From Candidatus Nomurabacteria bacterium (GTDB lineage: Bacteria > Patescibacteriota > Minisyncoccia > Phycocordibacterales > UBA9973), in assembly GCA_023267375.1 (NCBI GenBank), contig JAHFNJ010000003.1, positions 92,579-124,635 on the forward strand: a stretch of DNA of 32,057 bases, in the 5' to 3' direction. The notes under the pieces were generated by a model, which ran no database searches, was not told the DNA's origin, and was given only the letters and a program-made list of their open reading frames with translations. The position numbers were made by a program, and so were the translations under genes. Position 1 is the stretch's first letter, and the number at the start of each line of letters is the position of its first letter. Positions 24,246 to 28,934 of the stretch are shown in pieces.

Positions 24246-24260
24246 TGACTGCTAGAAAAA

Positions 24261-24290
24261 TCCCCCGACTATGTACTGTCGGGGGATTTT
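24261..24290. terminator. terminator hairpin between convergent genes
   Basis: TCCCCCGAC-TATGTACT-GTCGGGGGATTTTTT. Confidence 0.85.
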
Positions 24291-25741
24291 TTATTTTATG
24301 AAAAGTATCTGCCCATCAGATCGCCCAGCAAAAGAAATGATATAGAAACCATTCGGCAATAAGGGTTGTGTACCAACAGGCCCTTGATACACGAGCTGTC
24401 CAAGTATTGTACAGACATTCATCACTCCACTTTGCTCTTTGATAGTAACTGCACGTATTGGCGAGTATGAAAATGGCCATCATAATCCACCTGTTTCAAG
24501 CGATAGTAGCTCACTCCGCGAAGTGGGGCATCATCGATCGCTTTATACGAAACAACTCCGGTTGTTGTACCACTCCCCTTCACCCGTATTTGCTCAGTGA
24601 ATACTTGGGCATCACTACTCCGCTCAACACAGAAGTAACCGTTGTTTATTTCAGAAGCGGTACTCCAATGTAAACGAACAACATCACGAGACGCTTCATA
24701 CTGTGCACTAAAATCAAGCAGTTCAACCGGTAACCCGCAACCAGTATTATTGGCATAGGCAAATGGCCAGTAATAATAGTAGTCACTACATGCTGTATTC
24801 TCCCAAGCAAAGCAAATGCAAACAGTTGTATTGCAGGTTACTGTAAAATACGGGTTCGTTAGGATATTCGTACAACCAATAATAGTGCCAGTATTATCAC
24901 AGAGTGTGGCTGTTGCCCAGGCGACATTCCCCGAAGGACAATTACTACTAATCACCACCTGTACGCCAATCGATGTTGTATTCCCCGTGTTAATAGTCAT
25001 ACATCCCTGCAATACTTTATTTGTATCTTCTGCGGTGACAGGAAATGCATGCTGTGGGCAATATGTAATCACATCAGCTACTGTTGGCACATACGAGAAT
25101 ATGCACCCAGTAAAAGGATTTGCACAGGTTGATTGTGGCGCTGGATTGCTCGGTGTTGACGGAATCGTGGTCGACACCCAAATAAAATACGAAGCGCTTT
25201 GTCCGCAAATACCACCAGGTGTATACAGTACTTGCACCCAATAGGTATTTCCGACAATCAAATTTGAAAGCACATGTTCGGTACGAATGAGACCATTAGC
25301 TTTCGACTGACAGGAAAGAATGTCGCATGAAGCGCCACTACACGGAGGTGTTTTCCAAACAGCCGACGAAAGATAGCATCCACCACTATTTTGAAAAATA
25401 GTAACGGTCAAACTAGCAGCAGTCGCAACAAATCGATACCACACACTTGCGGTGGAATTTGTTGACGTAAGACAATCAGGAATTTCAAAAGCCAAAATGG
25501 TCCCATCACAGGTAGTACCAGATTTCGGCGCTGCGCCAACAACAAGAGTATCGGCAGTAGTACAATTGTCATTTGGTGCTGTTGAACAGCCTTGTGTGGT
25601 ATTGCCACCCTGAGACCTCTTCTCTTTCATAAAAAGAGAAAGATCAATGCGCATCGTATCGGTATATTGCCCGAACGACGCTACGCTGCCAAGCAATAAT
25701 GCAAAGACAGTACTCATGCGAAAGTTCGGTATTTTTTTCAT
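24291..25741 (-). pseudogene. Bacteroidota-style secreted protein with T9SS-like C-terminal sorting tail, frameshifted near 24470-24473
   Basis: Signal peptide MKKIPNFRMSTVFALLLGSVASFGQ; LPVELLDFSAQYEASRDVVRLHWSTASEINNGYFCVERSSDAQVF...SYYRLKQVDYDGHF; +1 T restores SYSPIRAVTIKEQSGVMNVCTILGQLVYQGPVGTQPLLPNGFYIISFAGRSDGQILFIK*. Confidence 0.85.
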
Positions 25742-26825: not shown

Positions 26826-27449
26826 CTACGAATTCTGCAGTGCAGCAGTCACCACCAATCGTTTATTGTGCGTCCGCAACTCTTGGATCCAAGTGCCAGC
26901 ACACGTAATCAATCGCACTTGTGGCGATCCGGAGTCGGTAAACACATCATTTGTCGGCGCATTGTAATCATAGGTATCTGCTTCGGTAACAATAAAATGA
27001 AGTTCGCTGCCTCCGGACATTTCTATATATATGTTATCTCCCACGTGAAGATCGTTAAGGTTGCTGAAAACTGCCGGTAATGAAAGACCGTTATCGACAT
27101 GCCCCGCAATTACCGCACTACCATTTTCTCCTGGAGCTACGCCGTACTTGTACCAACCAACATCGGTAAAATTAGTTGGGGTCGACATATTTCCTTTTCG
27201 CGTAATACCAACCGCTTGAATGAGTGCGTCAACATGTATTGAAGGAATTCGTAAACGAACTGGAACCTCATCCCCCACTTTCTTTTCTTGGTATGAGCTA
27301 TTTGAAACATCAACAACCTTCAACCCAGGAGGAAGCGGCACTTCAGCTTCAGGGGCATAGAAAACTGCATGCACCGCAACGTATAAAAACCCAGCGAGAG
27401 CCATGACGGTTAAAATTCCTATGAGGTATGAAGTGCTTTTATTTTTCAT
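26826..27449 (-). CDS. sortase, class F-like
   Basis: N-terminal TM; RLRIPSIHVDALIQAVGI, AVIAGHVDNG (His), RLITCAGTW (Cys), THNKRLVV (Arg). Confidence 0.9.
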   Translation of the reverse strand: MKNKSTSYLIGILTVMALAGFLYVAVHAVFYAPEAEVPLPPGLKVVDVSNSSYQEKKVGDEVPVRLRIPSIHVDALIQAVGITRKGNMSTPTNFTDVGWYKYGVAPGENGSAVIAGHVDNGLSLPAVFSNLNDLHVGDNIYIEMSGGSELHFIVTEADTYDYNAPTNDVFTDSGSPQVRLITCAGTWIQELRTHNKRLVVTAALQNS

Positions 27450-27529: not shown

Positions 27530-28027
27530 CTATTTCGCTACAGCAGTTCTACGAGAGAAGTAGATTCCGCCAGCAATCACGATTGCTCCCAAAGAGATGA
27601 GGAGAGCAGCATTTCGCGCGGCATCACCTCCAGCACCAGTTGTTGGCAATCCAGGAGTTCCACTTGGAGGAGTCGATGCAGGCACTCCCCACGAAACAAC
27701 CGTTGTACCATTACATGGCTGACCAGATTCGGAACTATATCCGTAAATCGAGGAACAACCTTGAAGGTATGCAATAGCTACAGAGCCACCACTACACGGA
27801 GCACCATTGGTATCACTGTAACCTAAGGCACTATTACAACCAGGAAGATAGGGCATGGTCGCAGTTGAAGTACCGTTACATGGACTACCTGTTGTTGCGC
27901 TGTACCCTAAGGCTGACCCACAACCATCAGGGAAGGTTGCCGCTTGCGCAGTGGTAACCCCCACAACAGCCATGGCAACCACAAGAACAAGAAACAGTGC
28001 GAACGCAGAAACATATTTAGTAATCAT
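27530..28027 (-). CDS. LPXTG-type cell-surface protein with three Cys-pair repeats
   Basis: Signal peptide; repeats GCGSALGYSATTGSPCNGT / GCNSALGYSDTNGAPCSGG / GCSSIYGYSSESGQPCNGT; LPTTG (27635-27649), TM helix, terminal SRR. Confidence 0.9.
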   Translation of the reverse strand: MITKYVSAFALFLVLVVAMAVVGVTTAQAATFPDGCGSALGYSATTGSPCNGTSTATMPYLPGCNSALGYSDTNGAPCSGGSVAIAYLQGCSSIYGYSSESGQPCNGTTVVSWGVPASTPPSGTPGLPTTGAGGDAARNAALLISLGAIVIAGGIYFSRRTAVAK

Positions 28028-28173: not shown

Positions 28174-28860
28174 TTATCCTTCACTTTCTCCTTTGAGTAC
28201 GGCTGTTACAACTCTTCGTCGTTCGTGGGTACGCTTAGCGATAAGCCATTTTCCTTCACAGGTAATAATGCGCAATTCAGGTGGGCCATCTTTAGTAAAA
28301 ATTTCTTCGGTCGAAGCATCGCGATCATACAATTTGCTTTCCTTCATTACAAATTCAAGTTTACGACCGTCGTCGCCAACCACAAAAATAGAATCGCCCA
28401 CAGACAATTTTGCAAGATTTTTAAAGACACCATCAATAGTAGAGCCGTTATTTAAATGCCCATCGAGTACCGCATTCCCTACTTCACCTGGCATCGATCC
28501 ATATTTATACCAGCCAACATCGGTAAAATTCTTCGGTACATCCATCAATCCTTTTTCTGTAATACCAACATCGGTAACTTTCGCATCAACTCCCAACGAC
28601 GGGATGATCACACGCGCAGGATGAACAGGAGTCGGCGGAGTTGTTGTAGAAGGATCTTCAGCAACCGTTGTGTCGATATTTGGCAGTAGTAAAGTCTCTT
28701 CGCTAGCAAGTGGTATCACCTCAGGTGCAACCGATGCACTCGCAAGTGTTACGAGAGTTGATTGCGAGACTGTATTTTCTTTAACAAGAAAAGTTTTTAC
28801 ACTAAAAATACTACCGATTCCAATAATAAAAATACTAAGGTACAAATATAGTTTATGCAT
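28174..28860 (-). CDS. sortase, class F-like
   Basis: N-terminal TM from MHKLYLYL; VIIPSLGVDAKVTDVGI, AVLDGHLNNG, RIITCEGKW, THERRRVVTAV. Confidence 0.9.
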   Translation of the reverse strand: MHKLYLYLSIFIIGIGSIFSVKTFLVKENTVSQSTLVTLASASVAPEVIPLASEETLLLPNIDTTVAEDPSTTTPPTPVHPARVIIPSLGVDAKVTDVGITEKGLMDVPKNFTDVGWYKYGSMPGEVGNAVLDGHLNNGSTIDGVFKNLAKLSVGDSIFVVGDDGRKLEFVMKESKLYDRDASTEEIFTKDGPPELRIITCEGKWLIAKRTHERRRVVTAVLKGESEG

Positions 28861-28934
28861 ACAGCATCTATCTATATCAGAGTGGTGACGGCAGTGCAAG
28901 GGGTATATAAAAAGAGTCTTTATTTATAAGGTTA

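Follow-up and report, generated by a model that had tools for sequence, protein, structure and literature searches.

The explanation that we put forward, with somewhat less than even confidence, is that a family of Patescibacteria without a type IX secretion system (T9SS) maintains T9SS cargo tags, which may be addressed to a partner cell, and that the gene studied here is a member of this set damaged at its 3' end. The gene is located in a stretch of 32,057 nucleotides, hereafter called the window, from a metagenome-assembled genome (MAG) named Candidatus Nomurabacteria. The interpretation given in the initial annotation was supported in part: what held is that a Patescibacteria chromosome encodes a T9SS cargo protein of the Bacteroidota type, the tail of which is removed by a 3' indel.

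According to a review, proteins with a T9SS C-terminal domain (CTD) are 'restricted to' Bacteroidota and, a few exceptions aside, strictly follow the T9SS core (PMC10202324). An ultra-small bacterial lineage that keeps such tags under constraint without a reader would break this rule. The tails would further provide a sequence-based clue to the hosts of uncultured Patescibacteria and a possible route for an episymbiont to attach to its host or to decorate it. Within open PMC full text, no paper on T9SS tails in Patescibacteria was found, and uncommented database annotations may exist.

The window gene and its displaced tail

Bacteroidota T9SS type A CTD cargo (TIGR04183/PF18962) and the intact relatives in the family alike combine a Sec signal peptide and a variable passenger with a C-terminal Ig-like tail bearing PNP, G and LxxGxY motifs. 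In a hydropathy test, such a signal peptide was also found in the window protein, where it is followed by a passenger of cysteine-rich beta domains and by an LPVELL module (Table 1). This module usually lies N-terminal to type A CTDs in Bacteroidota proteins, and most of its plasmid-borne relatives in Bacteroidota bear the annotation 'T9SS type A sorting domain-containing protein'. The window ORF ends with the residues ...YYRLKQVDYDGHFHTRQYVQLLSKSKVE at a double TGA, 15 residues past ...DYDGHF. As stated in the initial annotation, a frame change in the T4 run gives access to a 59-residue tail, and exactly these residues were recovered from 24470 up to the TAA. A terminator-like hairpin abuts this TAA and not the stop of the ORF, and therefore the gene most likely ended originally at the stop of the -1 frame. 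By our own estimate, 59 open codons would occur by chance in about 6% of cases, which is weak evidence taken alone. As assembled, the window copy would be untagged, with the tail displaced by a one-base frame change that is either a real mutation or an assembly error.

Table 1. Positions of the features discussed, numbered along the window
Feature	Position	Strand	Basis or remark
ORF of 439 aa, secreted passenger and 'LPVELLDF...YYRLKQVDYDG' domain	24422..25741	(-)	premature out-of-frame end HTRQYVQLLSKSKVE, then TGA 24424-24422
Signal peptide MKKIPNFRMSTVFALLLGSVASFGQ	25667..25741	(-)	sequence; hydropathy 2.2
LPVELLDF..YYRLKQVDYDGHF domain, residues 337-424	24470..24733	(-)	homolog comparison
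T4 run, site of the -1 frame change	24470..24473	(-)	sequence
Displaced tail in the -1 frame, 59 aa and TAA 24291-24293, type A-like CTD remnant	24291..24470	(-)	homolog comparison
Intrinsic terminator-like hairpin abutting the -1-frame stop	24255..24292	(-)	-23.5 kcal/mol, z = -7.9
Two sortase genes flanking a small surface protein with an LPTTG-like C-terminal anchor	26826-27449, 27530-28027, 28174-28899	(-)	Gram_pos_anchor 16.6 bits, below cut-off

Neither TIGR04183 nor PF18962 matched the window ORF, the restored tail, or the tail plus its upstream sequence. Against a CTD profile built from 31 Patescibacterial tails of relatives, the displaced tail reached 10.5 bits, compared with 8.7 bits for the best of 3000 shuffles, and it ranked first among the 497 stretches of 59 residues in the six frames of the window. 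The segment VDYDGHFSYSPIRAVTIKEQSG matched that of locus L006 (VDYDGKVSYSALRAVT-TEMSG) at 68% of positions, spanning the shift point. In comparison with L004 and L006, about 16-23 residues are missing from the region of the first CTD strand. Judged by sequence, the displaced tail is related to T9SS tails, though weakly.

A scan for close relatives with the window protein alone gave no matches. The best full-length homolog, L004/L040 (519 aa), comes from the Candidatus Nomurabacteria MAG nzgw481 of the same GTDB family and has the same domains, with 41% identity over the whole ORF. Unlike that of the window protein, its tail is uninterrupted and in frame, scoring 18.4 bits against TIGR04183 and hence below the cut-off of 23 bits. 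Because this homolog is Patescibacterial and its tail is intact, the objection that such proteins naturally end at KSKVE fails. Outside Patescibacteria, the best full-length relative is L041 from a Bacteroidia MAG (JANYIQ010000020.1, GL140_3), with 31% identity at residues 66-432; it resembles the window protein in the order of NDNC-type beta domains, LPVELL domain and CTD, but carries its tail in frame with a PNP motif. Structural modelling was too poor to name the passenger both for the window protein (pLDDT 56) and for L122, a cargo protein of genus g16 (pLDDT 58), and the fold matches of both were generic (beta-sandwich, carbohydrate/collagen-binding and cohesin-like).

With regards to the lesion itself, it is quite possible, though not probable, that the frame change arose in sequencing or assembly and that the cargo protein is intact, with its tail, in the living cell. 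A single-base change in a homopolymer would suit this, the terminator and the homology both fit the -1 frame, and the remaining genes on the minus strand of the window look intact. However, the restored tail is about 20 residues short and may therefore be non-functional anyway. The tail of the window gene was probably degenerate already before the frame change, and the notion of a recent lesion was not supported, since the restored tail is shortened and lacks a TIGR04183 match. Programmed -1 ribosomal frameshifting on U UUU C, yielding a short and a long product, was rated very improbable: in the T4 run the UUU codon could slip back by one base and pair again, but a classical slippery heptamer is missing and L004 is read in one frame through the same point.

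Intact tails and T9SS machinery in the family

At 94% completeness and 0.55% contamination, the window genome amounts to 847,608 bases in 14 contigs. While the sorting signal is lost in the window copy, as had been proposed, two other proteins of this genome carry intact TIGR04183 tails of 47.7 and 39.4 bits (cut-off 23), with PF18962 also above its cut-off. Such tails were detected in 57 of the 147 genomes of the GTDB family, with 56 genomes counted above the TIGR04183 cut-off, and in 20 of its 24 genera. Together, these observations point to a family trait and not to a one-off foreign gene; as TIGR04183 found no match in the remaining 90 genomes, the trait is not essential. Tails were rarer in a phylum-wide sample of 380 genomes, seven of which had them, five outside the family (out of about 373). 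In a sample of the order (397 genomes), 33 genomes had tails, 26 of them outside the family, including 11 in family f200. Genome G557 of the same order (family f185) holds ten TIGR04183 tails in about 0.9 Mb, several of them sharing contigs (C14, C15 and C19), and G375, from the same phylum but outside the class, holds four, three of which lie on contig C1.

Type A tails dominate, and type B (TIGR04131) was found in 2 of the 147 family genomes. A profile of 17 tails matched solved T9SS CTDs, namely 8glk_D (E 2.3e-15), 8glj_D (3.8e-13) and 5hfs_A (2.8e-6). All 41 tail-bearing cargo proteins tested had a hydrophobic, signal-like N-terminus, compared with 33% for the flanking genes.

The Bacteroidota CTD is normally read by SprA from the periplasm. 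Neither the SprA/Sov translocon nor the GldM/PorM motor was found in any of the 147 family genomes, and for each all four Bacteroidota controls were positive; the PorU-type peptidase C25 was absent from the 56 family genomes searched, which include nearly all tail-bearing ones, with three out of three positive controls. The presence of SprA and a PorU-type peptidase, raised in the initial annotation as a check, was thereby answered in the negative, and in the lack of SprA, GldM and a PorU-type peptidase the tail-bearing Patescibacteria differ from the organisms that carry T9SS cargo among Bacteroidota.

Altogether, 96 distinct tails from 53 genomes fell into 77 of a Bacteroidia-like kind and 19 of a long NPFNP kind, which we take to be the one known from Ignavibacteria. 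A single kind was present in 25 of the 26 genomes with at least two tails, a uniformity that is not independent of descent; the one odd tail belongs to genome G157. Within g16 alone, mixed kinds occurred in 1 of 11 genomes, compared with 7.3 expected (p 0.0002). Descent accounts for part of this uniformity, yet unrelated passengers in one genome share the same kind, which gives a hint that tails are matched to partners.

Possible roles of the tails

Patescibacteria have been proposed to lack an outer membrane (PMC12102498). PorV acts in Bacteroidota as the shuttle that recognises all type A CTDs, and their processing falls to the PorQ/U/Z attachment complex (PMC12618676, PMC10202324); for this reason we infer that the tails could address the T9SS of a partner. 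The family, including the MAG named Candidatus Nomurabacteria, would have acquired tailed genes from T9SS-bearing bacteria of the Bacteroidota type and would have retained these Sec-secreted, type A-tailed proteins despite the absent T9SS. The proteins may be exported by Sec through the parasite's own single membrane, and the tail may then act on the partner cell, where its putative capture by the surface-exposed PorV shuttle and the PorU attachment complex would lead to fixation of the passenger on the partner's surface by the partner's T9SS. As for the window copy, its tail would have been short already when the frame shifted by one base and displaced it. In the partner-cell model the parasite would use a host sortase from outside, with PorV and PorU of the partner picking up the tagged proteins and displaying or anchoring them on the partner's surface; we regard this specific route as doubtful, if conceivable.

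The main rival places the function of the tail inside the parasite and involves no partner T9SS: the tail would be re-used as an Ig-like module that folds and shields the C-terminus, or that keeps the protein attached to the Patescibacterial surface. Type A CTDs form compact Ig-like domains of seven strands (PMC10202324), and seven strands were likewise predicted for the g16 tail (pLDDT about 80); the constraint on the tails described below would equally suit such a role. In addition, the genome has surface anchoring of its own, with two sortases and an LPTTG protein encoded in the window 1-3 kb upstream of the tailed gene. We nevertheless consider this re-use somewhat unlikely: the T9SS-type motifs PNP, LxxGxY and the terminal K stay close to those of solved cargo CTDs, and a generic fold would not need a tail kind that is uniform per genome across unrelated passengers.

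Chromosomal setting and constraint

The chromosomal setting was examined in 40 fetched regions, in which the names of neighbouring genes were assigned by us from sequence. The tailed genes are surrounded by Patescibacterial housekeeping genes (pheST, gyrB, valS, nusA, PGK/TPI, clpP and similar genes) on contigs that reach 488 kb, and the order of neighbours is common to several genomes. In genus g16, one cargo set is located near valS in at least five genomes and another adjoins nusA in six, which shows vertical retention of these genes at their sites. The GC3 of 40 tailed genes tracks that of their flanks (r 0.73, mean difference 0.002). Tailed genes are GC-ameliorated and often syntenic.

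Among g16 orthologs, the tail (last 80 residues) is about 63% identical (49-74%) and the passenger about 26% (17-42%). The pN/pS values were about 0.21/0.72 and 0.26/0.78 for the CTD and 0.50/0.68 and 0.55/0.74 for the passenger, and in the tail as in the passenger the synonymous sites were almost saturated. Substitution patterns thus show a stronger constraint on the g16 tail than on its passenger. Internal stops were present in 2 of about 97 tail profile matches of the family. The g16 passengers L122, L132, L140, L128 and L127 contain dockerin-like DLxGDGxxxxxD repeats; the L122 model bears a weak, low-confidence resemblance to cohesin domains.

These data bear on a further reading, according to which the tailed genes arrived passively from Bacteroidota by horizontal transfer and are now decaying to varied degrees, with the window gene on its way to becoming a pseudogene. 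Patescibacteria often receive genes from Bacteroidota (PMC12455944). The LPVELL domain tree places the window protein next to L004 as its sister (96/85), with the remaining Patescibacterial sequences dispersed among those of Bacteroidota; the tree has too few columns, and a single origin of the Patescibacterial domains was not rejected (p-AU 0.10). The window copy is both frameshifted and shortened, the tail of L004 is degenerate as well, and in the g24 pair L157/L158 the degenerate tail is as variable as the passenger. Plain decay is plausible for the window gene's own subfamily, namely the window gene and L004 with their degenerate tails. For the family at large we judge passive acquisition unlikely, given the synteny and strong tail constraint in g16, the near absence of stops in the tails and the GC3 amelioration, and we keep to the reading of maintained tags.

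Misbinning of Bacteroidota contigs into Patescibacteria MAGs, for which some matches on short contigs could speak (e.g., the odd G157 tail on a contig of 7 kb), has a negligible probability and was rejected as a source of the tails on contig context, since many tails are embedded in contigs of 63-488 kb, where their Patescibacterial neighbours recur from genome to genome, and the window gene itself is located on a contig of 124.6 kb, about 6 kb away from its end.

Two minor observations concern the window genome (G000). On its contig C2, locus L120 encodes at 1165-1812 a protein with a Bacteroidota-like lipoprotein N-terminus (MKKINSLLVLGVLFASCTFMSCKKD...) that has no Pfam match and is possibly Bacteroidota-derived. 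Furthermore, L120 and the corresponding locus L126 of G002 present the tailed genes of the two genomes in a similar setting, with a common large gene and an rRNA-like stretch, which might be an old insertion place common to both.
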